A program made the position numbers and the translations under genes. Shown piece after piece: positions 26,491-62,509 of a DNA stretch of 64,000 bases (position 1 is its first letter; every line of letters begins with the position of its first letter). The notes under the pieces are model-generated. The model ran no database searches. It worked only from the letters and a program-made list of their open reading frames with translations, and was not told the origin of the DNA. The stretch spans positions 3,224,001-3,288,000 of the forward strand of contig NC_057765.1 of assembly GCF_010389155.1 (NCBI RefSeq), given 5' to 3'. This DNA is from Erigeron canadensis. Lineage: Eukaryota > Streptophyta > Magnoliopsida > Asterales > Asteraceae.

Positions 26491-29134
26491 TTACCTATCT
26501 CTATCCTCGGTTGCTATTGATGCCTTGTCATAACCTGATTGGATATACTTCTCATACTCCTCCAAAATTGTCAGCATCTTTGACTCTGAATCCAACTCAT
26601 TGCAGTTTTTAAAACAAAGCTCTGCAATATGAGTAATGGACATTTTTCCAAGTTGGAGCAAGAAAGAATCAATCTTTTCAATTTCATTTCCATAGAAGGT
26701 ATGTTTTCCTGTTAGTACCTCCGCAAGTACAACTGCAAAACCGCTGAGATTGCTCCGCAGAGGAAGGGGCTCTGACAAAATAATACTCACTCAGATATAT
26801 GTAATTTCATAAGTGCAAACCAACATTACTATAATGGACAGGAAAGGTGCATCTGAGAGACAAGTTGAAGTAGTAACTTACTGAACTCAGCATAGTAGTC
26901 GTCATAAAGAAAATCATTATTGTTAGGGTAGTAACCGTTTACTATCTGCGTAACATCATAATCTGAAAGTTTTGCTGTGAAATCCTGTACATTCATATTT
27001 CAGGAAACCTCAGTAAAACCAGTGCAATGTACACATACACGGGACAATAGGTTACCATCTGGATAGTGGAAACGACGAATCAAAGTTGCTTATTGCCCGA
27101 CTAGGTTCTAATGCCAATAGTATAAGAGCTGCAATTATACCTCATCCAACATTATATTATGTCTGTGAAGCCGAGACTCACTAACTGATCTCACTCCATC
27201 TTCTGTCTGTTGCAAGAAAACAATTCCTCGGGCAATTCCTACTGCTATTTTAACCTTCATAACTAACGGAAGTTGCGCTACAGCTCCTACAACAGGTAAA
27301 ACTAGATACTCAGGTTCAAGTTACAATTATTGGCAAAGTTGATTTATATATGGGGTTATGTATGTTGCTTACCACTATACAGGAGATCTTTTAAGTTTCC
27401 CTTTTGCATAAATTCATGTACAAGGAAGAGTTTTTCACCTTCCAAACAGTATCCTATGGGCTTAACAAGATTGGGATGATAAAATTCTTTCAGCATTTCT
27501 GGATCAAACTGCATTCAAAAGTGATCAAGTTCTGTGAACTAGACACATACAATGGAATGAGCGCAGCCTTCCATACAAGTAAGATAAGTATAATAGCTTT
27601 TTCATGCCAACTAACTAGAACAATAGGAAGGGTAAAGTAATAGACACTGTACCCGGCCACTTTAAGACTTACATATTTGTAGTGGTGCAGTCTTTTTACC
27701 GCAATGGGCAATCCGGTGTTATGCTTACAAGGGGAAAATGTCGTTTTATGGATCCAACCTTTGTAAACATTTCCATAACTTCCCTCACCCAAACATTTGT
27801 CATTCTCAAAGTCCCAGATAGCACGTTCCAATTCACAATACGTAAACTTCTTTAGATCTTTAACCCCTTTTGAAATTTCTCCGTTATAACTAAGATCCTT
27901 GTTGGTCGAAGTACTGGTGAAAATTTGGGCTTTGAAAACATGGACAACACAAGAAGAAACAAACAACAAAGTTAGAAAACTTTAGCTAAAAAACCTATCA
28001 CGGGTACCCACCATTGTTAGGCCAGGTAAGATAAGTGGTGTTCTATAGTGTGATATATCCTTTAAAGAGTGCAAATTGATTATTGATAAATATACATATA
28101 TGAACATGAAAAATTGATGAAATAGGGGTATACGGTATACCAGAGTTCTCTTTCGTTGCAGTAAAAAGATACTTAGGGATCTTCCATGTGAGTCCCCTGA
28201 CTCTTGATGCCTTTTGTACTTCCAGCAAAGCCTGAAGTTTGGCCACAACTTGAGTCATGGTAGGACGTTTTTCCAAAACGCTAGTCAAGCAACGATCTGC
28301 AATCTCAGCAAACCCTCTTAAACATTTGGGACTAATTGTTCCTGTTATTTTGGAATCAACCATTTGATCGAGTTTTCGTTCTTTCACACATTTTTGAGCC
28401 CACCTTGCCAAACTACATTGTTCTTCACCGTTGCGTTCATCCACTGCACGTCTTCCTGTTAATAACTCAAACAAAACCACCCCGTATGCATATACATCTG
28501 TTTTCCTTGTCAGTTTTCTTGTATAGAAATATTCTGGGTCCAGATACCCGAATGTGCCCTTAACACTAGCATCAACATATGACAATGATTGATTAATTGG
28601 GCTTACCTTGGATAACCCGAAATCTGAAATCATAGCGTCCCAGTTCTCATCCAAAAGAATATTGGAACTCTTCACGTCACGATGTATGATTCCTTGTTTG
28701 GTGCCAACACCCGTGTGGAGGTAGTCTAATCCACGTGCAACACATATGGCTATCTTTAGTCGTTGCACCCAACTTAAATAAGTACTAGTTTTGTGTAGAT
28801 GATCATATAATGTGCCGTTGGGCATAAATTTATAAACAAGGATCATCTCCTTGTTATCATCACAAAAACCAATCAAAGGCACCAAGTGACAGTGGCGCAG
28901 CGTAGATAGCATCTCAATTTCGGTGATAAACTCAGGTTCCCCCTGGTTGGACTTAGAATCTAGCCGTTTGATGGCCACCGCATGACTAGTTTCTCCACAG
29001 TATATATTACCTTTGTATACCTTTCCAAATCCTCCATGTCCAATGACCCGTTCATCAGCAAAAGTTTTGGTTGCAGATATAATCTCTTCGAGGGAAAAAC
29101 GTTGACATGTTTGTGCAGAAGTTGCTGATGACAT
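26491..29134 (-). CDS. Tandem kinase: CrRLK1L-type kinase + RLCK-VII pseudokinase (TK-A)
   Basis: Six exons, 29134-28141, 27929-27673, 27508-27373, 27286-27141, 26984-26882 and 26771-26491, give 638 residues with all phases matching. Kinase 1 (about 11-300) resembles the cytoplasmic kinase of FERONIA-like receptors: QRFSLEEI entry, GHGGFGKVY loop, K56, HRD 151-153, DFG 171-173 and DPEY, all intact. No extracellular malectin region, signal peptide or membrane helix is present. The second domain starts like RLCK-VII kinases (FTYCELERA, GEGSYGNVYKGWI, IAVKRL keeps the lysine). It has 'RLHRHNIML' in place of the catalytic loop and DYD in place of DFG, so catalysis is not expected. An upstream in-frame TTG stands where paralogues have ATG, so translation probably starts at 29134. 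Confidence 0.85.
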
Positions 29135-30337
29135 TTTCGCACCTTTGACTATTGTTTTAGAGTACAAATCTTGTTTAATTATACACTATATGAGAAGAAA
29201 GTTTTAGGAGCCTGGTGCTCTTCAAATGCAGATTAACACAAATTTCTTAACTTAAGAAATAATTAATTAGGCTTTCAGTTTTGCATTGCTTTAGTCAACA
29301 TTCAACTAGTTCATACTAGTTCATATTAGGTGCAATGAGGTCATCAACCAATCTGTGAAAGTCAAAGAAAATAAAAAATGAACCAATGAAAAACCAACCA
29401 GTATTTAAAATTATTGTCATAGAAGGTCCTAGAGACTCTTAGCTGTATTTATTTCATCTCTATCTCTAGTATAAAGATTTTGACACATTGTCCTAAATCT
29501 TGATAACTAGTTTCACTGGGTCATTTTCGGTTTGGTTTACAAGTCGGGTCAGTTAATCCATGGGTTGGCCCAAAGCCTGAGTCTTGCAAGTATCATTCAA
29601 CTTTACACCGTCTGCTAAGATATATGCATGTAACATCTATAGATGGATCTAAGGAGACTTCCCTTTCTAGTTTATTCGATTCGCAATAGTAAGCTTGCAA
29701 CTAAGCATTAGTTAAGAAATTTTTTTCAACTTGATGATCGGGATCCTTTTCTAATCTTCCTATTATTTCTCTTCATCACGGGTCAAATGAGATACGATTT
29801 AATAAAGGAAGTCATGTACAATTTTGTTATATCACTGATAATATAATTGCAGGTTTTCCTACTGGGTGACATGTGTGTACAATCAAGTCTAGTTGCCTCA
29901 TTGTCTTTCTCATGTAAGTTTGTCTGTCTTTATTAAGCAAATATATGCAGGGATTTTACTAAAATCAAGTCCAGTTTCTGATCTCGTGGGTTTTCAATTT
30001 TCCATTGGGCCAGCCCGGGTTCAGACTTAATATATTTAAGGGACTGTGGCCTAAACTGGGTTTTAACGGGTTATAGCAGTTGGCTTTTTCCGGTCTGGTT
30101 CAGCAGGTTACACGGGTAGGCCCGCATTTTTATCACCCTATCATTAGGTATAATAATTTTAATTATACATTGTGTCATTGTATCTAACATATATGATTTG
30201 TTTGTTAATATAAACAAAAAGGATATTTGTTGATTAAATATTGTGTCATGTGTTGATCAAAGAATGTTTTGATCGTATTTTCTATTATATACATATTGGT
30301 AGATATATCTATATCTATACACGTAATTCGACAGCTA
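29135..30337. other. Spacer between tandem-kinase genes
   Basis: The promoter of the 26491-29134 gene should lie here, though no clear TATA box stands out. Two patches with GC-richer words ('gtcgggtcagttaatcc' at 29545, 'gggccagcccgggttcag' at 30007) look like transposon debris. No ends could be paired. Confidence 0.35.
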
Positions 30338-33300
30338 CTAACTCTTAAATCTTCTCCGTATTAAGTCGTCATAATTTTCCAAGATCGTTAGCATTTTTGA
30401 TTCTGAATCTAACTCATTGCATATGGCAAAACATGAATTTGCAATATCAACTAAAGACATTTTCCCATGCTGGAGCAACAAGCTATCGATCTTTTGGAGC
30501 TTCCATTCCTCAAAGATACGTTTACCTGTAAGAATCTCCGCGAGTACAACTGTAAAACCAGAAAGATTGATCTGTGGTCGAAGTGGAGAGGCCCCTGACA
30601 TATTGATCCTAATTCAGATCTATGTTATTGGAATGACATGAAAAAATGAAAAGGGTACGTGGAACTAGAGTAACTTACTGAAGCGAGGATTTTTGTAGTA
30701 GTAATCATCAATTACTTCAGTATAATAGTAATCTGAAAACTTTGCAGTAAAATCCTGCATATATATAGAAAGTGAGTTAACATGAAAGAAAGAGAAGACC
30801 ATCTTCAAACTCAAAACTCAGCTTTAAATAATTTCTCAGTTTAAACTGGCATGATAGCCGCGTAACACCGAAGTTTAAACTGCATATATATATATATAGG
30901 ATTAATTTTTTTTTACTAATTAAGGCTTGTTAAGATGTGAATTGTTGATTCAGCATGATGTGACAATGTAGTATGTATTAAATGACACAAAGATGGACTT
31001 AAATCACAATTTTTTAACCATCCAACGGCTACATGGATTTTCTGTGTATCGGACTTCACCAAAAAGTGGACGCAATGCATGAATCACACCAATTCTAAAC
31101 TATAACCGACTATAATAATATAAACTCAGAAATTTACCTCAGCCAACAATATTTTATGCCTGTGAAGCGGAAGCTCATTCACTATTCCACTCTGATTATA
31201 ACGATATGTTTGATAAGGATATGTTGTGATTTCATTTCGCATGCTGTCTAAGAAAACTATCCCTCTAGCAATTCCTACTGCTATTTTCACTTTTGTAGCT
31301 AGTGGAAGTTGTGCTATAACCCCTGCAACTCATTCCAATTAGCTTGTATTAATATTTTTATACTCTTGAAACATTTATTTGATGTATATTAGAGCTTATT
31401 TACTTATATTACCACTAAGTAGGCGACCCTCAAAGTTTCCATTATGCATGAACTCTTGCACAAGGAAAAACGATCCTTCTAAGCAGTATCCTAAAAGCTT
31501 AACAAGGTTGGGGTGACTAAATTTTCTCAAGACCTCCAAATTTAACTGCATTCAAAACGATGAAGTTTAACAATCATAAGTCGGGTCGAAGAAGATATAT
31601 ATATTTGAAGCATTGCCAGACCAATAGTAGTCATAATATTGGCCATAGACTCACTCTTTCATATACCATACTTAGGATTTTCAAGGCTTACATGGTTGAA
31701 TAGATGAAGTCTCTTGACGACAACAGGCAAACCTGTATTATCGATAAAGGGAGCATATGTAATTTTATCGACCCAACCTTTGTAAACTGTTGCACATCTT
31801 CCCTCACCTAAACATGTGTCATTTCCAAAGTCCCTTGTAGTACATTCCAGTTCAACATATGTAAACCTTTTTAGATCTGGGGCTACTATTTCCTCAAAAT
31901 AACCTAAATCAGTACAATCCTTGTTGGTTGAACAGTTCTGCTTCATGTTGTTTCCATGGTCATTTAGAGAACTTGTACCACTTTCTGAGAATAGAGTAAA
32001 AAGTACAAAATTTATAGCTAGGAAATATTTACCTAACAGTGACCAATAAATTAAAGTCAACTTGCTCATCCTCTTTAAACAAAACAAACTATGTGAATGA
32101 AGAGGGTAAAGTAGCACCCAATACCGTCTAGCTTCCATGAGTTATGGGACCCAATAACATCTTCGACTGTGTATAGGGAAGGTGAGAGGTAGAAACCTTA
32201 TCCCTACCTAAGCTAGGTAGAGAGGCTTTGCTTATAAAAAAAGGCCTTTGGCCTGCAAGGAAAAAGGATTGAACCCTTGACCTCTGTCTCTACTTGATCC
32301 AACCTCTATGTAGATAAAGTCATAAAACAAAGTTGAATATTTATAAGATTTGGTATATACCTGAATTCTGTTTAGTTGTGAAAACAAGATACTTGTGAAT
32401 CTTCCAAGTGAATACAGATATGCCTAATGGCTGGACCGGGTTTTCAAATTTTCGTTGTAGTTCAAGTGAAGTCTGAAGTGACACGACTATCTCAGCCATG
32501 GTAGGGCGTTCTTCAGGATAGCTATGCAAACAGCGATTTGCAATTTGTGCAAATTCTCTTTTACATTTGGGGCTAATAAAGCATCTCATATTAGGATCAA
32601 TCATTTGATCTAGCTTTTTTTCCCTCACACATTTTTGAGCCCACCTTACCAAACTACACTCCTCTTCCTTAAGGCGTCTGTCCACTGCAAGTCTTCCTGA
32701 ATACAATTCGAACAACACAACCCCAAATGCATACACATCTGTTTTCCTTGTCAAGTGTCCAGTCATAGAGTATGCTGGGTCTAGATATCCAAAAGTGCCC
32801 TTTATACTAGCACTAAGATGGGAAATTGATTGATCAATTGGGCCTAATTTGGATAACCCAAAATCAGAAATCATAGCTGCCCAATTCTCATCCAAAAGAA
32901 TATTCGAGCTCTTCACATCACGATGTATGACTCCATGTTTGGTACCAACTCCAGTGTGAAGGTAGTCTAAGCCACGTGCAGCACCTATTGCTATCTTTAG
33001 TCGTTGAAACCAAGTTAAAGGTGTTGCAGCCTTGTGTAGATGATAAGATAAAGTTTCATGTGGCATATATTCATAAACAAGAATCATCTCCTTGCTTTCA
33101 TCACAAAAACCAATAAGAGACACCAAATTACAGTGACGCAGAGTAGATAGCATCTCTATTTCAGCTCTAAACTCAGATGCCCCTTGGTTAGACATAGAAT
33201 CCAACCGTTTGATCGCTACAATATGACTGCTTTCTTCAATAATGATATCTCCTTTGTATACTTTCCCAAATCCCCCCTCACCAATCACAAGTTCATCGTC

Positions 33301-33405
33301 AAAATCGTTGGTTGCGGATTGAATCTCTGCGATAGAAAAACGGCGGCAGGGCTGTGTTGAAGTTATTATTGAATGTTTCTCACCTTTGTCAATTCCAATT
33401 TTCAT
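30338..33405 (-). CDS. Tandem kinase: CrRLK1L-type kinase + RLCK-VII pseudokinase (TK-B)
   Basis: Six exons, 33405-32361, 31984-31692, 31545-31413, 31322-31138, 30754-30679 and 30594-30338, give 662 residues. Intron phases are identical to the 26491-29134 gene. Kinase 1 has GEGGFGKVY, the VAIKR lysine (K66), HRD 161-163 and DFG 181-183. The APE-equivalent is DPA (209-211), because the normally invariant Glu is Ala; this may weaken the activation segment. The second domain (about 385-660) keeps 'VVVKRL', but the glycine loop is GEGRCATVY, the catalytic loop is replaced by 'PLHRHKILL', and DFG by DYY. Exon 4 carries a 13-16-residue Tyr/Asn/Gln-rich insertion relative to its paralogues. No membrane segment is seen. 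Confidence 0.84.
32150..32320 (-). mobile_element. SINE-like insertion in intron 1 of TK-B
   Basis: On the minus strand a B-box-like GGGTTCAATCC (about 32277-32267) lies downstream of a possible A box 'tggatcaagtag'. It is followed by a body with 'ctacctagcttaggtagg' and 'gataaggtttctacc', a word pattern reminiscent of plant Au-type SINEs. The ends are not precisely defined. Confidence 0.5.
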
Positions 33406-34399
33406 AATTCTGAGCACTTGGTGTTAAGATGTGTAGTGAAATTTTAGATACTTTACATATTCTAGCGAACTTCAATAGAAAGAAGTGGGGTAATGATGGC
33501 GCCTTCAAGGAAGTAACAGAATAGTCATGCTAAAGAAAAAAGTTTATATAATTGGCTTAGGTTAATCGATCTGTCATCTTCACTCTTTTTGTCCATTATT
33601 GTCAATAATTCATCTTCATTTTTGTCCATTATCTTCAAAATTAAAAAAAAAAAAAACAATGAAGTACAACCTTTATTAAGAAGGGTAAGATTTTAACTTT
33701 GAAACTTTTTAAACACTTCTGCTGATGGACGTTAGAGTCTAGAACCTCAGTTTTTTTTAACAACGGTGAGAAAAACCGAACCAACAATCTAAAATCCCAT
33801 CGAACTGAAAAGGCCAAAAACAGAAAACCAAACCGAATGGATCTGTTGGTTTTCTAAAAGCCGTGCTTTTCAGTTCTGAATTAAAATGGTTTAATAGTCA
33901 GTGACAGATCCATAAATTTTTTTCAGAAGGGGCATCAAACAACAATGATGATAATGCATACATTTTAATAAATTGTAAAAATAAAAAAAAGATATCAAAA
34001 TATCTCTATATATAAAAGGCTATCGATCAGAACATATTACGTGTTGATGTGTAAGGTTCACGTAAGCAATTAAGCTATAAACGTAGCTTTATACTAAAAA
34101 TAAAAAGGATGTCTGATTTGGGAGGCATCTCCACCAGTTGAACCAATTAAGTTTTTGTTTAGAATTGACAAACTCACTATTAATAAACCGTCGTTCAGAT
34201 CGAAGCTTACTTAGAAACAGATTTCCCGTTCCCAACTTCCCATCGGAGACAACCCCTAAATTCTTTCCTATTTTTAATTTTTCCATCTCCCTTCCAATCT
34301 TTAATCCCCCAGTCTCTTCCTATTTTCAATCCTTAAAGATAATCTCAATTCCTTAAACTTTAGGGATTTATGGTTTTAAACTAAATGGCTAATAACACT
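33406..34399. other. Upstream spacer of TK-B
   Basis: AT-rich. An A-run is at about 33640-33655. No gene is supported; the two overlapping frames at 34089-34356 are mutual shadows. Confidence 0.4.
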
Positions 34400-34848
34400 G
34401 TATTCTCGAGTTTTTTTTTTTTAAATGATAGGAAAAGAAAAGATTGAATAAGGAAAGAAAAGAAAAAAATTTATATATCAAAAAGGCATGCTCGAGTTAC
34501 ATGAAAAACTAAAGAAAAGAAAAGAAAACACAAAATTAATAGTGTTCTTGAGATAGAAAGAAAAGAAAAGAAAGAGAAAAAAGTTATAATTTTATAATTA
34601 TGTCCTTTTTCCTATAAAGTTGTTATTAATTAATAGGGGTAAATTAGTAATTATACACATAACTTAAAAGTTTTCCATCTAAATCCTCTCAAAAATGGGA
34701 AGAAAGTTTTTACTTCAAAAACATCCATGTTTTCTTTTCTTCCCCTTTCCTTTCTTTTAAAAAAAAAACTCAAGAATGCAAAATAGAGAAGTTTTCTAAT
34801 CTTTTTTTTTTTTCTATCCTTTTAAAAAAAAACTCAAGAATGCACTCT
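34400..34848. mobile_element. MITE family A, copy 2
   Basis: It shares the order of blocks with 18518-18940: TGTATTCTCGAGTTTTT at the left end, purine-rich then 'gaaaagaaaag', a central 'ttgttattaatta' spacer, 'gggaagaaagttttt', then 'cctttcttttaaaaaaaa' and 'ctcaagaatgcactctaa' at the right end (34829-34846). This second copy supports a transposable family rather than chance low complexity. Confidence 0.6.
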
Positions 34849-37393
34849 AAATCTACAGATATATCAATTTTTTTTTTAGTCCCACTGTCGGCATCACGAT
34901 ATCAACACATATGTCAGGTTAGATTTTTTGATCCTTTCACTATATCGTGATGCTATATCAATTTTTGTTTGTATGTTTGTAAATAGAAATCATGAAAAAT
35001 TATAAGTTTTTTCTCAACTAAATTTTTGCTAATAAGGCTGTACTAAATTTATTCTTGATATATGTTGTCTTTATGTTAACGAGATTACACATGGTGTTAT
35101 GAAACAATTTCTAAACCGTGTTTTTTTTTTTTATAATCTTTTGAGGTTATTTTTGTGGATTTATGTACTTCGATCCATTTATATAAAGATCGATTACATG
35201 CAGATACCTGAAAACTAATTATAAATTTAGAGAAATTAAGTTATTGAAAACTAAAAAATGTTTTGGTTAGCTGGTTTTATTTTGGCCTGTAAAGAGGATT
35301 AGCCATTAGCCATATTATTGTTAATAACACACTACTATCAGGTTTTTAAGTACTTAGACAAGCTGTACCATTTTCCTAAAATCATGATCTGCCACTTATT
35401 TTGCACTCAATGATGTTTGAATGTAGAATGCGATAATGCATTTCTAAGCACAGATATTAAACTAGGCTGACAAAATGTTTTGTATGGTAAGTGTGATACA
35501 GAGGGAGGTTGGTGGGTTAGTCCTAATTTGGGTAGAAATTAGAATTAAATTGGTATTGTTCACAAGATGTGGTCTACCTATAAACACCCCTCAACTCAAA
35601 CGTGACTTCAAACCCTATAAAGACATTTTGTAGAACCAAAACATGACACATGGTCGACATGTTTCATGACTAGATGACATGTTAATTATATGGGCATTGC
35701 GTAATTTTTCAACCCGGTTGGCCTGAAAACGTATTTAGTTATATGTTATTGGCAAATATTTGAACAACGATTCCCTATGTTATTATGGCAGTTGGTCTCA
35801 TATATGCATCCTCTATTAGGATTCAGGTAGTTGTTTTTAACTATAATTTTTTCATGAAAATAACAGTTGAACTTTCACCTCTTTTACTATTCAAGTACTT
35901 ATTTTTAACGTGATTTATCTATGAAATAAGTGTTGCACTTGACTTTTGCTTTACTGGAGTCAATAAAGATATTTTTAGCTAGCCATTTTGATCTTTTGCT
36001 TTACTTCACTCTTTTCTCTTTCGTATTACCGATGTCATTTGCAACCCAACCCTCCTGACCTATTTCCTCCATTTTTTAAATTTTACTCATTTTGACTAAC
36101 ATGTTACCCAACCTCCCATTTTTCTAGGCCACACTTAATAGTTTCACTTATCATTTCTTATGATTTGGGCGTTGCAGCATTAATTTGCCTTGATCTAATC
36201 CTTATGTATGACTAGAATGTTCCATTTCTTACATGCTTAGTGGTAAAATTGTACGAAACACCTCAAAGATCAAAAAGAAGAAGTGCTCCATGGGGATTTA
36301 CTGAGTTGTTGTCCACCTTTGATGCTTACTCATGAGGTCAGTGTTGTTGAGAGATTTTTCTTTGTTGTTTATTATCTAGGGCCAACATTTTACAAGTCAT
36401 TAAAAGAGGTGTCCATATTAAAACTACATTTGGACAATGCTTTGACAGAAAACACAAGAAAATTTAGTGATCACATGATGCAAATACACAACAAAACTGC
36501 AGCCAACATCATTTTCCTTTTACAACCTGATATGAATCCAACAACACAAGTGACCATCCAACATCAGCATACTTGAACCATATTTGTTGTCTATGATATC
36601 ATAACATAGTAGCTTAAGTCTTTTCTGGCATGTACACAAAGTTGGGTGACCATTGATTCATTGAACAACTTTCCTGACCCTTACTTGAAAGGTGATAATA
36701 ATTTTATCTTATTAAAAGAAGTATTTTTGTTAGTATGCCATTATTCCAAAAGTAATATGAAATTTGGATAGTCCATTTTTTTTTTTATGTTGATCTGTTT
36801 TTTTTTTTATTATTATTATTTTATCTTTACTTTTTATTTTTGCAGAATGGTGAGGGAGAAGAACAGAAAATAAAGTCCAAGGCCTTTGACATATTTGGTT
36901 GCTTTATCTTAAACTAAGTAAATTATAATATACTTAATGGATTGATGTTCACTCTTATTGTTTATCCTCAACTATTTACAGTGTTAATTATATTGTTTTG
37001 GAAAATGATAAATCCTTTTAAGATTAGGGTATAAGAAAATGACATGTGGTATCTACTAAATATTTTTCTTAATGTTGCTCTTTGATTTTGTCACATGTCT
37101 TCAACTAATACTTAGGATGATTTTTAGGCCATTCTTTTATGAGGATTAATCATTTCTTTATTTTTTTTTACGACTCAAACTTCATTAGTTTCAGGGTAGT
37201 TCTTTTAAAATGTTACTTTAAGGTAGCTACTTTATTCCATATAATATATCTTCTTTTGTTTTGATCTTGAGTTTTGACAACCGAATACAAGATTTGATTA
37301 GGCGCTCCATTAAAACATTTATTTAAGTTATAGGATTGATTGTATAGATATTGGAAGAGTGAATAAAATTAGTTAGGATAATAAGATACTATT
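34849..37393. other. AT-rich spacer, no supported gene
   Basis: A 97-residue frame at 36283-36576 starts with a non-ATG codon and resembles nothing I know. Several poly-T runs are present (for example 35119 and 36778). No paired repeats or domains were identified. Confidence 0.4.
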
Positions 37394-39387: not shown

Positions 39388-39735
39388 CAATTCTGCCTCT
39401 ATACTTTGATTATTTTCCTTTTAGTACTCCGAGCTTGAATTTAACGCTAAAATCTGACTTAACTTTTCCCACTTCCTATTTAACAGCGACAAATCTTCAA
39501 ATACTTCTATTTCCATAGTTTCGATTCATGTGTGTACGTTGAAATTTTTACCTTAAAAGCACCCAATTTAGCCATGGATGGGTGTTTAAAGTGAGGAAGA
39601 AGAAAAAGTAATTAAGTAAACAAATCATACATGCTGGTTTCTAGAATTAGGCAGCCACTTAGACATTCTCCTCCGAGTCAACTGGTAATGCTCGTTCAAG
39701 ATAGTTATCATGTTTGATACTAATCTAACATTTTT
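39388..39735 (-). pseudogene. Decayed 3' end of a tandem-kinase gene
   Basis: 39633-39735 matches the end of the last exon of the 41010-44152 gene (its 41040-41140), for example 'caggcagccacttag' and 'ttcaagatagtta', with substitutions and loss of the frame. The similarity continues into the 3' flank: 39388-39520 matches 40730-40862, sharing 'ctctatactttg', 'ttccttttagtactccg' and 'cttcaaatact'. The rest of this gene copy is gone, so this is a relic of an additional duplicate. Confidence 0.65.
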
Positions 39736-40427: not shown

Positions 40428-40677
40428 TCTATCTATAAACCCTTATAGAGGGTATAAGTTTTAAGAAATTAAGCAATTTTTTCATTTCCATAATACCCTT
40501 CTTACTATTATTGTTTTTTACACCTCCTCAAGTATCTACAGAAAGTACCCTTATCAAAAATTTAAACCCACAAAACACACAACATCCTTCTCCTGCGCAT
40601 TCTTCGATCACCACCACCGCCTTCATTTTATATTGTCCTTATCTTCTAGCCGCTGCAACGCGCGGGTACTATGCTCG
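40428..40677 (+). mobile_element. Non-autonomous Helitron, 250 bp
   Basis: The 3' end CCGCTGCAACGCGCGGG plus TACTATGCTCG, followed by T, is nearly the same as the end of the Helitron at 14555-15032. The proposed 5' end, TCTATCTATAAACCC after an A (40427), is plausible but less certain. It lies in the 3' flank of the 41010-44152 gene. Confidence 0.6.
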
Positions 40678-41009
40678 TTTTTACAAAGCATATTGTAAAC
40701 TAGCCTATTTATTAAAAAAAACTCTTATTCCTGCCTCTATACTTTGGTTATTTTCCTTTTAGTACTCCGTGCTTGAATTAAATGCTAAAATCGATCTGAC
40801 TTTAATTTGTCCGACTTCCTCTTTAACAGCAAGAAATTAATCTTCAAATACTTGTATTTCCATATGCCTACAAATGATAGGAAGTGTGTGAATATTGATT
40901 CATGTGCTTTGAGTTAAACTTGTATGCTCATATTTTAACCACATTTTAATTCGAGCACCAATATAGTAATTATCCTAAAACATTAGTTTTCTGAAAGAAG
41001 AAAAGGTAA

Positions 41010-44000
41010 TTAAGATAAATAACAATAATTGAAAAAAGAAACACATACACGGTTTCTGGAATCAGGCAGCCACTTAGCCATTCTGTTCCGTGTCAATTTG
41101 TAATGTTCCTTCAAGATAGTTACCATATTTGATTCTGCATCCACCTCATTGCAAATTTCAAAACATATATCTGCAAGATCATCCAAGGACTTATTTCCAT
41201 ATCGCATGACGAGATGATCAATTTCGTTTTTACGCTTTTCATTGGGGATTCGTTCCCCTGTTATAATCTCTGCGAATAACACTCTAAAACCGGAGAGATT
41301 GCTCTGTAGCAATAAAGGTCCTGACAAATTAATATTTATTCAGATCGAGTATGCAGCTGTTTCACAACTCAACTACATCACGAACAAAATTTCCTAACTA
41401 TGAGAGATAGGTTGAAGTAACTTACTGCACCCAGGAGTATAGTCGCCAGGCTCGTTAGAATAGTAGAATTCAGTATAGCGACCGTGTACTAACATAGTCA
41501 CGTCATAATCAGAAAGCTTTGCTGTAAAGTCCTATTTTATAAATGCATTAAGACCAGCAAGGTATGTTAACCAGCTTACTAAAAAAAAAAAAAGAAAGAA
41601 AGAAAAACATTAGAGCACATATCCTAGAGTTAATTTCATTACATACCCCAGCCATAATTAGAAGTTTCGCCCCTATCATATTTTCTTATCATTACATACC
41701 CTTTTGTATCTATTAAGTACTAGATCTATTCTTGCGATTAGATTTAGAGCTGTTACTTTGATATTTTTATATACATGGAGATAGATATAGATACATATGG
41801 AATACGAGATCATGATGATGGCGGCGGCAGATCACCACATCATATAGCTAAAGATATTCATTAGTAAAAAACAGGTTTATTACGGAAGAATCTTATACGA
41901 TATTTTTTTGTTGGATGCATCTTAGACGATATGTTTACTACTATTATTAGCTACACACGCATAATTAAGACGATATGTTATTATCTAGCTTTCCGAGTGT
42001 AACTATTGAATGCCTACATTAAGTTGAAAGGTCGGGTCAACATGTACCTCATCAAGCATTATCTTGTTCCTGTCAAGCTCGGACTTACTGACTTCATCGT
42101 CTGTCTTATGCAAGAAAACAATCCCTCGAGCGACTCCCACTGCTATCTTCACTCTTGTAGCCAATGGAAGTCGTGCTACAGATCCTACAACCCATGGAAA
42201 TAAAGCTCTACACTTAAACCTGCATATGTTGATTAAATTTTACTTATGTCTAGCGCTGTTTTTTTTTGCTTACCACTACCAAGGTCAATATCAAAGTTCG
42301 AATTAGGCATAAGTTCATACACAAGGAAGGCCTCATGACCTTCTAAGCAGTATCCCAAGATCTTAACAACGTTGGGATGACAGAACTTTTTTAACGTTTC
42401 TGGATCAAACTGTGCTCAAAAGCGATCAAGTTAGACACTTAGACAACGTACTTAGGCTAATAAATAAGTATCTTATCTGATAATATAAAATGTAAAACAG
42501 CAGATACATCACTCTCCTTTTCAAGGCTTACCATCATTGAGAAGCGTTGAAATCTTCTAACTGCAACGACCAATCCAGTATTCTTCTTACATGGTGAATA
42601 TGTCATATTATCCACCCAACCTTTGTATGCCTTTCCATAACTCCCCTCACCTAACCATGCCTGATTCTCAAAGTCCCTTGTGACAAGTTTCAGTTCGTCA
42701 TAAGTGAATAGTTTTAGATAACCATCTGTGTTGGTTGAAGAACCGTGATTCATGTTGTTCTTAAGGCTCTTTGGCGAACTTGTTCCATGTTGGTCTTGCA
42801 AAATGGACAAAACATTATCAAAAGTTATTTTTAGAGATTATCAAAAAAAAAAAAAAAGAAAAAAAGGTCTCCTTTCTCTGCAGATACATTTGATGGACAT
42901 TATTAATATTCTCTCTTCAAGCAATTACGATTGTATATATCTCCGTAGACTTGTTTTCATTTCTGTAACAGTTACAGCTTTGTCTGGGCCTCTATCCGTT
43001 AAAAAGGCCAATTGTAAGTGTTAAAAATTGTTTTTTGATATTAAGATTATTTTGTAAACGAAGAGCAAAGAATGCACATACGACATTAAGGAAAAGTTTG
43101 TGCATACCAGAGCTTTGCTTAGTTGTGAAAACAAAATACTTATGTATCTTTGATGTAAATCCCATTGCCCCTGATTGATTTGCAGAAATTTCCCATTTCT
43201 TCTGCAATTCCAGTAACTTCTGAAGTAAGCCCACAACCTCAGCTATGGTGGGTCGTTCTTTTGGAATACTAATCAAACAACGATATGCAATTTGGGCAAA
43301 CTGTCTTAAACATTTGGGAGAAATTGTTCCTTGAATTTTAGAATCAGCCATTTGTTCAAATTTTTTTTCTGTCACATATTTTTGAGCCCATCTCACCAGA
43401 CTGCATTGCTCCTCACCATACTTTATGTCAACTGGAAGCCTTCCGGATAGCAACTCAAACAATACGACCCCAAATGCATATACATCTGTTTTTCTTGTCA
43501 GTTGTGTGGTATAGAAAAACTCAGGATCTAGATAGCCTAGTGTACCTTTAACACTGGCCTCAATACAAGACAATGATTGATTAGTAGGGCCTATTTTTGA
43601 TAACCCGAAATCTGAAAGCTTGGCTGCCAAATTCTCATCCAAAAGAATATTCGAACTCTTTACATCACGATGTATAATTCCTTGCTGAGTGCCAAAACCG
43701 GTGTGAAGGTAGTCTAATCCACGACCTGCACCTATGGCTATTTTTAGTCTTTGAACCCAACTAAAAGGTATTGCAGCCTTGTGTAGCTGATCGTGTAAGG
43801 TTCCATGCGGCATATACTCATAAACAAGTATCATCTCCTTGTTATCGTCACAAAAGCCCATCAGAGAGACCAAGTGACAGTGACGTAGCTTTGAAAGAAT
43901 CTCAATTTCAGCCTTAAACTCTGGTGCACCTTGGTTAGACATTGAATTTAACCGCTTGATAGCCACAACATGATTAGTTTCTTCGATAGAAATACTACCT

Positions 44001-44152
44001 TTGTATACCTTTCCGAATCCTCCCTCTCCGATGACCCGTTCATCATCAAAGTTGTTAGTTGCAGCTTCAATATCTGCAAGAGAAAAACGGTGACATGGGA
44101 TTGCTGAAGCTGATGATGACGTGTCATCAGCCTGACCAGATGCATACTGCAT
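41010..44152 (-). CDS. Tandem kinase: CrRLK1L-type kinase + RLCK-VII pseudokinase (TK-C)
   Basis: Six exons, 44152-43108, 42794-42532, 42409-42274, 42184-42048, 41531-41426 and 41320-41010, give 665 residues. Exon 1 is 1,045 nt, exactly as in TK-B. Kinase 1 is complete: GEGGFGKVY (42-50), VAIKR lysine K66, HRD 161-163, DFG 181-183, DPEF. The linker DQHGTSSP...NNMNHG leads into an RLCK-VII-like domain (FTYDELKLVTRDF, GEGSYGKAYKGWV). There the usual VAVK lysine is Arg (VAVRRF), the HRD loop has become 'ELDRNKIML', and DFG has become DYD. Of the three RLCK-VII-type second domains this is the most decayed. The C-terminus is about 20 residues longer than in TK-A and TK-B. ATG 44152 is used; it aligns with MYSATHEGD of the 45320-50156 gene. 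Confidence 0.85.
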
Positions 44153-45319
44153 AATCCTGGTTTGGTTATTCAGATATGTACTTTGGAACTTAATTGATAG
44201 GATGTAAACAATTTGTGTTCCTTATAAGTTTCAATACGATGGAGACAAGCATTGACTACAATAATTTCAGGGGCTGCAGATGATGAAATTTTAAAGCAGC
44301 TTTTATAAAGTCAACTTCAACAATATAAGGTGCAATAAAAAAGTCTCAACCAAAGCAACAGATTCAAGCACACCGCGTGCAGAAATCTACAAGGTATGTA
44401 TATATGTGTGTATGAAGAGGAAGAAGTAAAGAAGAGGTGTTGTGTGTGTCGGTAACTAATGTGTCGACTAGGAAGAAATAAGGAAGAGGTCACAGCTAGG
44501 AGACGTTTAACCGGTTCAAAGATGCTCAACCTGAGGTTAGTAAAGAACTTATGACATTTTTTTAGAAGTCAACTATCAGATGCAGCTACTGAATATCTTG
44601 AGATTATTTTTTTTAGAAGTCAACTATCCACAACGGTAGGTGCAAGGAAAAATGCAGAAATATTATCTATACTAATATAGTAAAAGATTGGATTGGATTG
44701 GAGGTGAATATGCATTAGATATGGAGACAGTATTTTAAATGGGAGGTGATATTAGTACCACCAAAGTTAATAGAGTTACCACACACTACAAGATTTATAG
44801 TAGACTGTACAAACATATAATGCATAAATGTGGTAACTCAATAAAATTTTATGGTAGTATTATCGATTCTCATTTTAAATGCATAAATAACTACTTGTAT
44901 TTAAAAATGAATAACTTATGCTAGATACATAGATATGGTCAATATTAATTATGTACAGATAACAGAAATTCTTGTCATTGCATGGATCTTACAATGTCAA
45001 ATTTTAATAGTTGCACCATGGCATGTATAGAAACCATTTTCTTTCTCAATTTTATTTAACCGAGTTTTGCAAATGTGTGTCTAGAAAAGTGTATGTGATC
45101 ATATGATTACGATTACCACATTCCGTTATTGAAATATACGGTAGTAATCATTTGATCATTGTTGCTTAAACTCGATTCATCTTTTCACCGTTGATTTAGT
45201 CTACAGAGTATCATAGCATATCAATGGTGGTCGATTTTGTTGTTATAGTTGATTTTGTCTACATTGTAGTATATAGACATTGATTGATACATCATACATA
45301 TGAAGGCTTCAAGCTTTAA
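44153..45319. other. Spacer with possible Helitron 5' end
   Basis: At 44667 'tctatactaatatagtaaaa' after an A resembles a plus-strand Helitron start, but no matching 3' end was found. 44740-44870 contains an inverted pair around 'agttaccacac' and 'gtggtaact'. There are no genes. Confidence 0.35.
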
Positions 45320-48149
45320 TTATCTAAAATTTCGCCGGTCTCTTCTGAGATAATCCATTCTGTAAGCCCACAACTGCTCTCCCACCATTTTCATATCTGG
45401 CCGGTACGCCCCTGATGGGGCAGCACATTGAAAAGCTAAATCGACCATATTTTCAAAGATTTTATAATCCACGGATTCTTTCATTTGAGGATCAACCAAA
45501 TCGAATATACGATTTTCTTTGAACTTCTCAAACGCCTGGAAACAAACACCAAAACAATCACGGACTATAGCCTATAGGTATTTAAAAAAAAAAAACTGAA
45601 CAAAGTTTTCAGCCCATTAAGACTCTTCACATTTTCAACTTTCTAGTATGTAACCCAACCCTTCCAATCTACCCCTTACTTAATTACCTTCTAGTCCATC
45701 ACTTCAATACTAATTTCCTAAACTAGCCCAAATAATCTTAAATTCACCCATATCATGGATTGAGCCCTGAATTTCATCCCGAATTCCCGACAGTCATGAG
45801 TCTACCAGATGAACTAACCCCACATTGACATGTACATCGTTGTTTACTACGAGAATGGTAGAGAAAATTGATCAAAGGTCTCCTCTCTTCCTATTTCTAT
45901 TTTTTGGGAATAGTTCCATCTCGAATGGGGCTCAAGCCTATTATGTCATGAAGTGATATCAAACGTCGAAAAAAAAGTGATTCATATGCCTAGCTAGATA
46001 CACAGGGGTGTTAGAAGAAGTTGAAACTAACCCATCTTATTGTCACTTTCTCCTCTGGAGATCTCCTCGGCTGAATGGGCCGCCGGCCCGTCAGAATTTC
46101 TATGAGTAAAACACCGAAAGAGTAGACGTCGCATTTTGTGGTGAGTTGGCTGGTTCTCATATACTCGGGGTCAATGTAACCGAGTGTGCCCTTTATTTTA
46201 GGCACACGAGTTGTTGTATTATTAGTCTCTGCATTTTCAAGTCGTGAGAATCCAAAATCGGCCACTTTTGCCGTGAGTCTTTCGTTTAGAAGAATATTGG
46301 ATGATTTCACGTCTCGGTGTATAATTTGGTATTCTGCTCAACATCAAAAAAGTAAATTTTGTATAAATATAACGTACGTAACTTTATAATATAAAGAAAA
46401 TTTCTAAAAAGATTTCTTACTTATTAGTACCGACCAGTGATGAAAAAGGAATAATTTGTAAAAATCTATATTAATTTTTTTTTGACTGGTTGTTGCCTTG
46501 GTGGTGGGTGTCAAGATGTGAAATTGTGAATAAAACTTAATTAACTTTCAAAAAAAAAAAAATGACAATAGTTAAATGATTGCTTTCTTTAACCGTTAAT
46601 CAAAATAGTATATTCAGAGTTGATCGAGACTTCATGAATTCTAGGAAAAATTATTAATCACTTATTTTTATGCAAGCAAATAGGCTGTATCATAAAAAAT
46701 ATCTTAGGCTTTACTAATTCTTTTCTTTTCTACAATTTTATTCAAACAAAATCTATTTGCATATAATTTTGGGTAAGTCATTGTTAATACGTAATAATTT
46801 TCAATTGTTATTTATGAACATTTTGTTTGAGTAAAGTTTGAAATTAGTTATTCTTTAAGAATAAAAAAATAATAATAATACTGTAGATATGTTATGATGA
46901 GGTGTTCAAAATACACGCGGAGAAAAGAAAATATCATTTTTGTGAGGAATTGAAGAAAGAAAATACAAATATGTTTTATGATCGACATGGATGACCACTT
47001 GATGAATTTCGATTATTGGAGAGAGATCTATATGTATTCTACGTTATGCATACCCGCGTATTGATGGAGATAGGTTAAGCCATGAGAAATATCTATGCAA
47101 ATTGAAAGTCGTTGACTGAAATCCAAGAAACTTCCGCGAATTCCTGATACGACAATTCAACGACTAAATTATTATGGATAAAATGAGACTATTTGCAATA
47201 TGCATGTAAATTCGTTGAGTAAAATTTTTTATAATGTTTGTAGGATACATATATAGTTGCACCTAAGGATCGATGGTCCTATTAAAAACACGTACCAATG
47301 TTAAACCAAATTATCTTATATAAAAATAGTTATAAATCTACATAACTCACACGACTAAAGATGAATTTAATTATAAAATGATAACATCTGCAAAATCAAG
47401 TGATTAGATTAGGAAACAAAATTATTATAGTTTGAAGTTGATTTTTAAAACGGTTTTGCTAAACGAAACCCTAAAGGCTTTAATTTCGTTAAGCTGCATT
47501 AATTAGTTATATACTTACCATAAAATTCAGGGGTGGATTTTTAATATGAAAATGTACAATCTTTTTATGCACGTTAAGTGAAGTCATAAGGGCTTTGTTT
47601 AACATTTTCTTTTTAAAAATACTTTTAGGTCAATTAATCATTATTATTTTTGTATAAACATGATGATAAACTTATTATTGCTAATTAATTACCGTCTAAA
47701 TGTTGTCTAAGGGTACCGTTAGGCATGTATTCTGTAATAAGAAGGTGCTCGTTTCCTTCATCAACGTAACCAAGAAGTTTCACTATACATCGATGATCCG
47801 TCTTCTCAAAGAGTTTGACCTCACTTCTAAACTCGCTTTTTAGAGCATCATAACGTTCCTGCATAATTATTTTCCGATACCACGTGACAATTAGCTGACT
47901 TTATAAAAAGTCAATTTGCTAATTATAATTGACAATTAGTCTATTGATTTAATAAGTCAATTTACTTTTTTGGCAAAAGAAAACGAGTATAGATCATATA
48001 TATCAATCATGCAATTGACCCATTAGTCTATTAATTTATAAAGTCAAAATTATTAAATGCGTACACGATATTAATCGAAGAAAAACCTATTCTAATTATT
48101 AATCGAATGTAACTATATGCTAACAAAATTATCAATAATAAAAAACAAA

Positions 48150-48206
<57 letters not shown>

Positions 48207-50156
48207 TTCTAATAGCACCAAAACTAAAACATTAAAAGATAGTTTCTACTATTGGTAACACATTGCTAGTTTTCACTAAATAATTGGAAGATGGTGTCTA
48301 TAATTATTGGTAATCTTGGTAGATGGTTTCTATTTTCAACAATGTGACAAAAGTTCGTTTTTGAAGCAATTATCCTAATGGGAATTATAATACAACTTAC
48401 AAGCAAGATCCTTGTGTTCAATTCATAAGCAATTTCAAATCTATCTCCCAAAAAACCTTGTTGAGTATATAAATGGGCAAGTAATATTGCATAAACACGT
48501 TAATTGATTTACTATAACAACGTAACTATTCAAATTACCTTCTTTGCACGTTTTATGGCGACCACTTGACCTTCGTTTAGTTGAGCTTTGTAGACGGTCC
48601 CAAACCCGCCTTCACCCAATCTTAGAGATGGTGAAAAGTTTCGAGTAGCTTTTCTGACTTGACTCATAGTCAAATGAACAGATTCGATGATATTTGGTGT
48701 TGGAGACATTGAAAATCTAGCAGGACTAGGTGGAACCTTTTCAGGAACCAAGTTCATTTCTATGAACCGCCGACGCTTTTCTTGGTGACCGTCAGAGTCC
48801 TTGATATTCATGTTGTCTCCACCGATCTTTGGGGTGCCAACATGGTCTAACAAAACATAGAAATTAAAACAGTAAGTCAGTAAGTAAACACCCAATTACG
48901 TCTTTCACGACTTTTGGGTCCCAATATTTCGACAGCCCGTAACAAGCAAAAAATTGTTATGATAGACCTTTGATAACAAGAAAAATAATGTTCTTAGACA
49001 CAACTAGTATCCAACTTGCGCACAATATCAGAAGTAGCCCAAATTAAATATCTGGTACAAATAAGAATAATAAACAGACACAGAACACAAAGAGTCGGTC
49101 TATACCACTGTTCAACTTTGGAGAGTTCAGTTTTGGTGATAAACCAAAATACTTATGCATTTTTGAAGTGAGCCCAGTTGGTGAAACGGCAGAAGCCTCC
49201 AATTGCTCATGTAGTTTAAGTAAGGCTTGAAGAGAGGCCACAACCTCAGTCATATTGGGCCGCTCTTTCGGGACACTAGATAAACAAGGATGTGCAATCT
49301 GGACAAACTGCTTTACACATTTGGGGAAAATTCCACTCATATTAGAATCAACCATTTGATCTACTTTTCGCTCTTTTACACATTTTTGAACCCACCTTAC
49401 CAAACTACAGTCTTCCTCCCCATACTTTTTGTCTACAGGAAGCCTTCCTGAAAGCAATTCAAATAATACAACTCCATATGAATATACATCTGATTTCCTA
49501 GTTAATTTTCCAGTATAGAAATACTCTAGATCCAGATACCCAAATGTGCCTTTAACGCTAGCGTCAATAAAAGACAATGATTGATTAGTTGGGCCTATTT
49601 TGGACAGCCCAAAATCCGATATCAGGGCTTCCCAGTTCTCATCCAAAAGAATGTTTGAACTCTTCACGTCACGATGTATGACTCCTTGATGGGTGCCAAA
49701 ACCGGTATGAAGGTAGTCTAACCCACGTGCAGCACCTATGGCTATCTTTAGTCGTTGAACCCAAGTTAAATGTGTAGCAGCCTTGTGTAAATGGTCGTGT
49801 AAGGTTCCATTTGGCATATATTCATAAACAAGTATCATCTCCTTTTCAACATCACAAAAACCATATAACGATACCAAGTGACAATGGCGCAACTTAGAAA
49901 GCATTTCGATTTCAGCTCTAAACTCAGATGCACCCTGGTCAGACCTGTAATCACACCGTTTGATGGCCACAAAATGGCTGGTTTCTTCAATGGTTATACG
50001 ACCTTTGTAAACTTTTCCAAATCCTCCTTCACCAATGACGAGTTTATCATCAAAGTTGTTGGTAGCAGATTGAATCTCTTCAAGTGAAAAGCGGCGACAT
50101 GGTTGTGCTGAAGTCGACGGTGATGACATGTCACCCTCGTGAGTTGCAGAGTACAT
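45320..50156 (-). CDS. Chimeric tandem kinase: CrRLK1L-type kinase + CRCK-type kinase (TK-D)
   Basis: Six exons, 50156-49106, 48846-48539, 47858-47693, 47143-47054, 46333-46032 and 45535-45320, give 710 residues, with every junction in frame. Kinase 1 matches its neighbours (GEGGFGKVY, K66, HRD 161-163, DFG 181-183), except that the APE-equivalent is DLE (209-211). The second domain is not RLCK-VII. VHLTMSQVRKATRNFSPSLRLGEGGFGTVYKAQL and 'ITEYMPNGTLRQHLDG' are typical of calmodulin-binding receptor-like cytoplasmic kinases (CRCK). It is complete: VAIKR lysine 449, HRD 544-546, DFG 564-566, DPEY. The start of exon 2 ('DHVGTPKIGGDNMN') still resembles the linker of TK-C, so the second kinase appears to have been swapped. 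No signal peptide or membrane helix is seen. An alternative is two adjacent genes, but no separate promoter or N-terminus is visible in the 259-bp intron. Confidence 0.83.
48151..48207. repeat. (TTA)n microsatellite in intron 2 of TK-D
   Basis: About 19 uninterrupted TTA units. The tract lies in the longest intron stretch of the chimeric kinase gene. Confidence 0.95.
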
Positions 50157-62506: not shown

Positions 62507-62509
62507 AAA

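Follow-up and report, generated by a model that had tools for sequence, protein, structure and literature searches.

A cluster of CrRLK1L-type tandem-kinase genes in Erigeron canadensis with two kinds of second kinase

Introduction

Do the four kinase genes lying side by side in this part of the Erigeron canadensis genome each encode one soluble chain of two kinases, and is the pair the same in all of them? A first-pass annotation of the window (the whole 64,000-nucleotide stretch analysed) had answered yes on both counts: each gene was said to join a CrRLK1L-type kinase, devoid of ectodomain and membrane span, to an RLCK-VII kinase, a pairing that might be undescribed. Published work is cited below from partial texts of the papers concerned.

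Structure of the cluster

Spliced models confirmed a real cluster of four minus-strand genes where the annotation had placed them and, also as claimed, all four stay in frame throughout, with GT-AG introns (4/4). Gene A (26314..29134, minus strand; exons 29134-28141, 27929-27673, 27508-27373, 27286-27141, 26984-26882, 26771-26495 and 26410-26314) encodes a CrRLK1L kinase in exon 1, followed by a predicted RLCK-VII-like pseudokinase. Its end had been set at 26491; a seventh exon moves it to 26314. The product equals the NCBI E. canadensis protein P0126 over 669/669 residues, both kinases joined, and Helianthus proteins P0122, P0123 and P0125 share 62-68% identity with it. Gene B (30338..33405, minus strand; exons 33405-32361, 31984-31692, 31545-31413, 31322-31138, 30754-30679 and 30594-30338) has the same predicted domains, and its isoform X2, in which exon 6 starts at 30608 in a shifted frame, is the NCBI E. 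canadensis protein P0121 (629/629 residues), again with both kinases joined. Gene C (41010..44152, minus strand; exons 44152-43108, 42794-42532, 42409-42274, 42184-42048, 41531-41426 and 41320-41010, the 3' end being tentative), obtained by modelling and tblastn, is of the same predicted kind; its closest match among the retrieved proteins, from Helianthus, is just 61% identical. Gene D (45320..50156, minus strand; exons 50156-49106, 48846-48539, 47858-47693, 47143-47054, 46333-46032 and 45535-45320), obtained by modelling and matched by fused relatives, joins a CrRLK1L kinase to an RLCK-IV (CRCK3-type) kinase.

A second kinase-like domain in the same chain is thus borne out by NCBI proteins for A and B and by the models for C and D. 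Neither C nor D was among the Erigeron proteins listed in three protein searches (lengths 0.55-1.75 of the query, best 120 listed); for these two, the case for one chain is made by splice sites, frame and relatives. One relative, the 674-residue two-kinase protein P0148, is coded on a contig no longer than 2,193 bases, which leaves no room for introns like those of the window, and therefore supports one chain. The intron phases, said to be shared, are so in A, B and C (1,0,1,0,1 for the first five introns); gene D departs from them (1,0,1,1,0).

The window also holds a partial copy of gene D comprising the end of exon 1, intron 1 and the start of exon 2 (50842..51598, minus strand; tblastn, 97.9% identity over 750 bp), and a relic last exon of gene C type (39634..39729, minus strand; tblastn, 69% identity, E 1e-9). 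Rfam and tRNA scans of the window were empty. The cluster is flanked by a prephenate/arogenate-dehydrogenase-like gene (23036..24412, plus strand; Pfam PDH_N). In Deinandra, the annotation of P0149 joins a PDH_N-domain gene to a tandem kinase, the likeness to the flanking gene being judged by eye.

The first kinase is of CrRLK1L type

Among 177,635 PDB sequences, the best match of the gene D first kinase is FERONIA (E 3e-94). Against two asterid CrRLK1L receptor kinase domains, the first kinases of A-D show 56-60% identity, and CrRLK1L is the best of three reference classes for each of them, in agreement with the first-pass assignment. FERONIA also leads the listed fold-search matches with 52-53% identity, as expected for the first kinase. 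The K, HRD and DFG motifs are present in 33/34 full-length first kinases, A-C included, the remaining one being gapped at the lysine; five of these 34 are window genes or database copies of them. Exon 1 of gene D (49106..50156, minus strand) has intact HRD and DFG, with DLE in place of the activation-segment DPE. First-kinase dN/dS is 0.20-0.30 (six pairs). For the sunflower kin, the best Arabidopsis matches given in the text consulted are At5g39000 and 'At5g38900' (PMC8866362).

The proposed absence of ectodomain and membrane span holds as well. The only Pfam matches in A-D are to protein-kinase and overlapping kinase-like families, with no malectin-like ectodomain, and hydropathy reveals no membrane-span-like stretch in them (best 19-residue value 1.18-1.66, as against 2.35 and 2.65 in two CRCK3 controls and 1.92 in one malectin receptor). 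Predicted structures of P0003 (mean pLDDT 76.6, pTM 0.49) and P0126 (mean pLDDT 73.6, pTM 0.50) each contain two kinase-like folds; the linker between these is predicted at low confidence.

The second domain of genes A-C is a degenerate RLCK-VII-like domain

With the second domain of gene B, which served as query for the A-C type, the top PDB matches were BIK1 (best, E 3e-29), PBL2 and RIPK, all of which we take to be RLCK-VII kinases. The catalytic motifs of that family are not retained in A-C: of 65 second domains of the A-C type, counting the window copies, 48 could be aligned at both motif columns, and DFG is present in 0/48. Judged by sequence, the second domain of A-C is a degenerate, RLCK-VII-like pseudokinase, and the RLCK-VII assignment stands for these three genes in this degenerate form; it does not hold for gene D. 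Second-domain dN/dS is 0.38-0.45 (three pairs, A-C).

A survey for the same pairing found a CrRLK1L-labelled domain with a degenerate RLCK-VII-like domain in 51/337 retrieved proteins (42 at 50% CrRLK1L identity or more), and the A-C kind occurs in many Asteraceae. Another 19/337 (18 at the 50% floor) combine a CrRLK1L-labelled domain with a near-canonical RLCK-VII domain, some of them with a malectin ectodomain. Since the A-C kind is already in print for sunflower and lettuce (PMC8866362, in the part consulted), the suggestion that the pairing may be undescribed fails for these genes.

Gene D is a different fusion

Exon 2 of gene D (48539..48846, minus strand), which meets exon 1 at a phase-1 junction, comprises a linker, an SP/TP-rich segment and the start of a CRCK3-type kinase. 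This second kinase reaches 68% identity with the closer of two CRCK3 references, from grape and soybean, its matches carry RLCK-IV or CRCK3 names from their sources, and in a tree of this domain it falls inside the Asteraceae CRCK3 clade with 100/100 support, on one of the longest branches. A second-domain family common to all four genes is thereby ruled out. The N-terminus of native CRCK3, with its signal-like and membrane-span-like stretches, is absent from gene D, the CrRLK1L exon standing in its place. At least eight annotated proteins (P0002-P0007, P0013 and P0018) in four species, from Centaurea, Bidens and two Helianthus species, have this architecture; seven remain when the CrRLK1L part is required to reach 45% identity and six at 50%.

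The fused CRCK3 parts keep features of their source. At least three SP/TP sites are retained in 8/9 of them, with a mean of 3.4 in 106 native CRCK3 proteins versus 0.42 in 24 RLCK-VII-type linkers. The catalytic Asp is lost in 4/9 fused domains (gene D counted among the nine) versus 0/106 single-domain relatives, controls that are biased towards canonical sequences because they were chosen as closest matches. K, HRD and DFG are all kept in gene D and in three other fused CRCK3 domains. Compared with the native consensus, the gene D domain differs at 12/116 invariant and 73/176 variable columns (p 2e-9), a pattern indicating that its second half is under constraint.

Might gene D instead be a CrRLK1L kinase gene lying next to a truncated copy of CRCK3, the two joined only by modelling? 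Its absence from the Erigeron proteins listed, an in-frame ATG inside exon 2 and the fast evolution of the second half would fit such an artefact. We nevertheless consider it quite unlikely, for donor and acceptor are consensus sites and the donor, in phase 1, matches in position that of A and B, which are annotated as joined; the same architecture is annotated repeatedly in other species, the partial copy repeats the same exon-intron-exon block, and the CRCK3 part lacks its native N-terminus. In comparisons with 200 shuffles each, scores as high as that of the gene D exon 2 linker occurred in 0 (against B), 6 (C) and 88 (A); for intron 1, in 0 (B), 170 (A) and 121 (C).

As modelled, gene D is thus a distinct fusion of CrRLK1L with an RLCK-IV/CRCK3 kinase, and it is here that the cluster offers something new. 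The first-pass annotation had missed both this fusion and the pseudokinase nature of the second domain in A-C. A pairing of RLCK-IV with a tandem kinase was not found in the literature searched, and the consulted portions of PMC8866362 and PMC10884359 mention no CRCK3/RLCK-IV second domain for the sunflower and lettuce CrRLK1L-1 proteins.

The cluster could also be an expanding and decaying one of little function, its fusions mere by-products of duplication, as the partial gene D copy, the relic exon and the large CrRLK1L expansion in sunflower (PMC11646777, partial text) might suggest. Against this, reading frames stay open across all six or seven exons, with dS at 0.70-1.01 and dN/dS no higher than 0.45, the second half of gene D is constrained and the A-C kind is widespread in the family; we regard this explanation as very improbable.

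Domain trees indicate at least two captures of CRCK3

The separate domain phylogenies that the first-pass annotation had proposed were run. A single clade of fused CRCK3 halves was rejected by the AU test (p 0.0002), and so was a single clade of fused CrRLK1L halves (p 0.001). A single origin is thereby rejected as the simplest reading on both domain trees, which means at least two fusions: the trees indicate that CrRLK1L tandem-kinase genes captured CRCK3 at least twice in Asteraceae. Grouping Erigeron with Heliantheae in the CRCK3 half (AU p 0.115) or with Centaurea in the CrRLK1L half (p 0.143) was not rejected, both sub-groupings having been picked with the first trees already in view.

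In several genomes the locus tags of cluster genes are close to those of CRCK3-type genes, and from this order the captured CRCK3 possibly came from a CRCK3 gene near the cluster. The same proximity makes gene conversion possible, by which one ancient CrRLK1L-CRCK3 fusion would later have been overwritten from neighbouring CRCK3 and CrRLK1L genes; that the join lies at a similar place after the end of the first kinase in all linkers agrees with such a history. Conversion would, however, have been needed in both halves in at least one lineage, given the two AU results, and we hold it to be unlikely beside repeated capture.

Discussion

We propose, with a probability of roughly 0.6, that the cluster encodes intracellular immune sensors of the tandem-kinase type, in which the second kinase is exchangeable. 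The first half is a CrRLK1L kinase that keeps its catalytic motifs but has neither ectodomain nor membrane span; the second, by models and relatives, is an exchangeable, kinase-derived module joined via the phase-1 intron after exon 1. This module would most likely mimic an immune kinase targeted by pathogen effectors or phosphorylated by MAP kinases. Any alteration of the module would be relayed to the CrRLK1L kinase, which would then phosphorylate and activate an NLR partner, comparable to the helper NLR that some wheat tandem kinases need (PMC12830362, partial text).

The second domain could instead act within the chain to regulate the first kinase, in the manner of Janus kinases, and be neither bait nor related to effector sensing. 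The pseudokinase predicted in A-C and the pair of kinase-like folds in the predicted structures, their linker modelled at low confidence, would suit this arrangement, whereas repeated capture of CRCK3 together with its SP/TP segment is left unexplained by it; we find it rather doubtful, though the least so of the alternatives weighed here.

If the genes do encode sensors, an NLR resembling SUMM2 would be the natural partner of gene D, because in Arabidopsis CRCK3 is guarded by SUMM2, an NLR whose activation involves the CrRLK1L kinase MDS1/LET2. According to the texts consulted, CRCK3 is phosphorylated by MPK4 and guarded by SUMM2, SUMM3 being CRCK3 and SUMM6 being MDS1 (PMC13307163); LET2/MDS1 associates with SUMM2 and its kinase activity is needed, and whether LET1/2 and CRCK3 connect in activating SUMM2 is left open (PMC7519094). 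The SP/TP-rich segment of the gene D CRCK3 part may provide candidate sites for phosphorylation by MPK4. We tentatively raise, as an idea less probable than the general sensor function, that the CrRLK1L-CRCK3 fusion is a self-contained sensor of MAP-kinase integrity feeding a SUMM2-like NLR, with LET2/MDS1-type kinases and CRCK3 forming one signalling unit. If so, the fusion would be evolutionary evidence for that unit. Its repeated natural occurrence makes the link between LET1/2 and CRCK3 directly testable, with ready-made constructs. By analogy, these tandem-kinase genes of a dicot family, in which one type of first kinase is combined with differing second kinases, may be likened to NLRs that acquire integrated decoys. 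Genes of this kind are listed among candidates for OrDeb2 broomrape resistance in sunflower (PMC8866362, partial text).

Comparison with known systems

The closest known proteins are the sunflower and lettuce CrRLK1L-1 group (OrDeb2/OrAnom1 candidates; PANTHER PTHR27003:SF342). The available text of PMC8866362 describes soluble one- and two-kinase members whose only active site lies in the left domain, and it likens the two-kinase ones to Rpg1, Yr15 and Sr60. As here, their first kinase is of CrRLK1L type without ectodomain or membrane span, and like A-C they are clustered with a second domain devoid of an active site; gene D differs by its CRCK3/RLCK-IV second domain, of which the consulted accounts of that group make no mention. 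Sunflower has 67 CrRLK1L-1 members with several kinase domains (PMC11646777), and two short RLCK-VIIa-2-type genes of H. anomalus together match one longer sunflower two-kinase protein contiguously (PMC10884359), both as given in partial texts.

The likeness to Rpg1-, WTK1- and WTK2-type tandem kinases, pointed out at the outset by the annotation, is upheld in that two kinases share one soluble chain (by NCBI protein for A and B, by model for C and D), without membrane span or other domain by Pfam and hydropathy. In WTK1/Yr15, Rpg1 and their kin the first kinase has the key residues and the second is degenerate, and A-C agree with this; in gene D, K, HRD and DFG are present in the second domain too, leaving the motifs intact in both halves. 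Tandem-kinase proteins further differ in drawing on other kinase families (WTK1 is a WAK-RLCK fusion; PMC6170490, partial text) and in including resistance proteins, whereas the present cluster is known from sequence.

Receptors of the FERONIA/MDS1/LET2 type share the kinase type of the first half, FERONIA being the best solved structure, but they carry a malectin ectodomain and a membrane span, and the window proteins have neither. The asterid receptor P0286 combines Malectin_like with two kinase stretches. CRCK3 (SUMM3), the guardee of the NLR SUMM2, resembles the second half of gene D in identity and clade; the N-terminus of native CRCK3, with a signal-like stretch in the controls, is absent from gene D, whose CRCK3 part is fused to a CrRLK1L kinase.

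Results

Spliced models close in frame for all four minus-strand genes of the cluster, A (29134-26314, seven exons), B (33405-30338), C (44152-41010, end tentative) and D (50156-45320), as the first-pass annotation had proposed, and have GT-AG introns throughout (4/4). Its end of gene A at 26491 had to be moved to 26314, beyond a seventh exon, and the intron phases that it described as shared are so in A-C only (first five 1,0,1,0,1, against 1,0,1,1,0 in D, whose exons after the first are laid out unlike those of A-C). Exon 1 (994-1051 bases) contains the entire first kinase in A-D and ends in phase 1 in 4/4 genes. For A and B, the claimed union of two kinases in one chain is also the NCBI annotation: among the Erigeron canadensis proteins, P0126 is identical to spliced gene A (669/669 residues) and P0121 (isoform X2) to gene B with exon 6 from 30608 (629/629 residues). 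Both kinase-like domains are present in the two proteins, the second one shortened in the X2 form of B. Exon 6 of gene B has two acceptors 14 bases apart (30594-30608, minus strand), and isoform X2 uses the frame-shifting one, giving a shorter pseudokinase. A partial copy of gene D (51598-50842, minus strand, 97.9% identity over 750 bp) is a recent duplication breaking off within exon 2, and a relic last exon lies inside the cluster (39729-39634, minus strand).

The first domain of A-D is by its matches a CrRLK1L kinase. FERONIA is the top match of the gene D first half among all PDB sequences (E 3e-94), and the four domains show 56-60% identity to two asterid receptor kinase domains. Neither an ectodomain (Pfam) nor a membrane-span-like stretch (hydropathy) was found in A-D, and these results and the FERONIA match agree with the annotated soluble CrRLK1L-type kinase. 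All four retain K, HRD and DFG; DPE of the activation segment is replaced by DLE in D and by DPA in B, and dN/dS among the first kinases is 0.20-0.30 (6 pairs).

The same CrRLK1L and RLCK-VII pairing had been proposed for all four genes; it holds for A-C, not for D. Best solved relatives of the gene B second domain in the PDB are BIK1, PBL2 and RIPK, which we take to be RLCK-VII kinases. We collected 337 distinct proteins from the best 120 matches of each of three protein searches (6,729, 735 and 7,979 matches in full; in two of them scoring was confined to candidates sharing most words). Among these best-listed proteins, 51 (P0121 and P0126 included) join a CrRLK1L-labelled domain to a degenerate RLCK-VII-like domain, 47 at a CrRLK1L identity floor of 45% and 42 at 50%, and another 11 carry the degenerate domain alone. 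Both motif columns could be aligned in 48 of the 65 degenerate domains compared (among them those of the three window genes and of their two database copies); the HRD-column Asp occurs in 5/48, DFG in 0/48 and both together in 0/48. Full-length first kinases of such proteins have K, HRD and DFG in 33 of 34 cases (5 of the 34 being window genes or their database copies), the exception, P0131, having a gap at the lysine. Second-domain dN/dS of A-C is 0.38-0.45 (3 pairs), indicating that the reading frame is still under selection.

The second domain of gene D is, on sequence grounds, an RLCK-IV kinase of the CRCK3 type. Of two CRCK3 references, from grape and soybean, the more similar one shares 68% identity with it, the source names of its matches are CRCK3 or RLK-Pelle-RLCK-IV, and the motifs of the domain are intact; its top PDB match is FERONIA, at 225 bits versus 319 bits for the first half. 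Compared with the native (unfused, single-domain) consensus, changes fall on 12/116 invariant versus 73/176 variable columns. This avoidance of invariant columns argues against a freely drifting pseudogene.

A CrRLK1L-labelled and an RLCK-IV domain (at least 60% identity) are joined in 8 of the 337 best-listed proteins; seven further ones with an RLCK-IV label below 60% were excluded. These D-type proteins come from Centaurea solstitialis (P0003, P0005 and P0018; in P0018 the first kinase is shortened and has 37% identity), Bidens hawaiensis (isoform X1 P0002, and P0007), Helianthus annuus (P0004, P0006) and H. debilis (P0013). Among other retrieved proteins, P0001 of Rutidosis leptorrhynchoides has two consecutive CRCK3-type kinases and an LRR-like N-terminal part with a weak Pfam LRR_Zer-1 match; perhaps it is an immune-receptor end joined to CRCK3, or else a merged gene model. 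P0286, P0325 and P0326 (Rhododendron, Actinidia) are CrRLK1L receptors with malectin ectodomain carrying a second kinase labelled RLCK-VII in one chain; the soluble forms may derive from receptors of this sort.

Next, each half was placed in a tree. Among the 35 rows of the CRCK3-half tree, the nine fused domains are scattered and form no single group: those of Centaurea group with native Centaurea and Arctium genes (100/99), those of Heliantheae with native Helianthus and Smallanthus genes at weaker support (84/80), and D falls among native lettuce-tribe and other rows with weak support (87/84). AU tests rejected a single clade of all fused CRCK3 halves (p 0.0002), of Centaurea with Heliantheae (p 0.00005) and of Erigeron with Centaurea (p 0.011); Erigeron with Heliantheae was not rejected (p 0.115), nor was a single clade of the five Heliantheae rows (p 0.243), which are split in the free tree. 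In the first-half tree (44 rows; P0018 omitted, its first kinase being incomplete), the five Heliantheae fusions form a separate clade (100/100), and D and two Centaurea fusions lie inside a clade of RLCK-VII-type genes (100/96). A single clade of all fused first halves was rejected (p 0.001), D with Centaurea was not (p 0.143), and an earlier, quickly built tree (56 rows) agreed with this. The scattering, together with rejection of one clade in both halves, points to at least two CRCK3 fusion events, and three are possible; the long branches of P0007, D and P0013 call for caution in reading these trees. None of the fused domains falls in the second clade of native CRCK3 from Asteraceae (10 rows, 100/99).

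Fused CRCK3 domains have changed. Distance from the Asteraceae base is 0.22-0.48 for fused and 0.05-0.26 for native domains (18 rows; two Rutidosis rows, 0.15 and 0.23, were counted as neither). Seven of nine fused domains, all but P0018 and P0004, exceed every native Asteraceae row. The HRD or DFG Asp is missing in four of the nine (P0004, P0006, P0007, P0013), P0002 has HGD instead of HRD, and D, P0003, P0005 and P0018 keep all three motifs, as do 106/106 single-domain RLCK-IV proteins, these being closest matches and hence biased to canonical ones. The SP/TP-rich segment before the kinase has at least three sites in 8/9 fused CRCK3 domains (one in P0013), against a mean of 3.4 (minimum 2) in the 106 native genes and 0.42 in 24 RLCK-VII-type linkers.

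Judged from locus-tag order, single CRCK3-type genes lie near genes with degenerate RLCK-VII-like domains in Arctium (L6452_26648 and two-kinase L6452_26657), Smallanthus (L1987_27760 and L1987_27765) and Cichorium endivia (L1887_38322 and 38337/38338), the degenerate domains of the latter two genomes being annotated without a first kinase. In Centaurea, both fusion kinds are intermingled by locus tag (CRCK3, OSB04_015364, 015371 and 015419; RLCK-VII-like, OSB04_015368 and 015423). The annotation of Deinandra P0149 joins a tandem kinase to a prephenate/arogenate dehydrogenase, and the Pfam domain of that dehydrogenase also occurs in a gene flanking gene A (23036-24412), which suggests a conserved neighbourhood of cluster and dehydrogenase gene in the window and Deinandra.

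Elsewhere in the window, a putative second tandem-kinase locus (9117-14086) lies on the plus strand, opposite to the cluster; there a CrRLK1L-like kinase (9117-10268) is followed by a degenerate one (10969-11808) and by two Phloem protein 2 domains (12589-13014, 13664-14086). We also noted transposase-like frames of a plant DNA transposon (20996-22385, minus strand; DDE_Tnp_4 in 20996-21472, remainder by eye), open frames resembling a retroelement polyprotein (61241-63821, minus strand, by eye), a UDP-glycosyltransferase gene (55405-57193, plus strand; Pfam UDPGT in 56273-57193, first part by eye) and an open frame with a repeat unit of about 20 residues, KMGNRQNKTN...GISLKEA (3357-3767, plus strand).

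Discussion

According to published work, CRCK3 is an MPK4 substrate that interacts with SUMM2, and mkk1 mkk2 suppressor screens yielded SUMM3 (CRCK3) and SUMM6 (MDS1) (PMC13307163). Kinase activity of CRCK3 is required for CRCK3-triggered death (PMC10441961); LET2/MDS1 associates with SUMM2 and acts upstream of it, its kinase activity being required, and the LET1/2-CRCK3 link is named there as an open question (PMC7519094). Some wheat tandem kinases need a helper NLR (PMC12830362), and a decoy role has been proposed for tandem kinase-pseudokinases (PMC6170490).

The cluster proteins may be intracellular sensors, in which the second kinase would be the watched part and the first kinase the signalling part. 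That four of the fused CRCK3 domains have lost an Asp would be easier to reconcile with a bait than with a signalling enzyme; gene D, its motifs intact, appears compatible with both.

The CrRLK1L and RLCK-VII pairing had been thought possibly undescribed, but three papers already describe the A-C kind in broad terms for sunflower and lettuce (PMC8866362, PMC10884359, PMC11646777), and the pairing occurs in other asterids as well, in some with an ectodomain. D-type proteins are already in public annotation, where the names given to them are unspecific or partial, and no publication on them turned up in our literature searches, whose reach ended short of the 2025 tandem-kinase atlas. Since the A-C kind is in papers and the D kind in none that we found, the architecture of gene D appears to be new within a broader kind that is already known.
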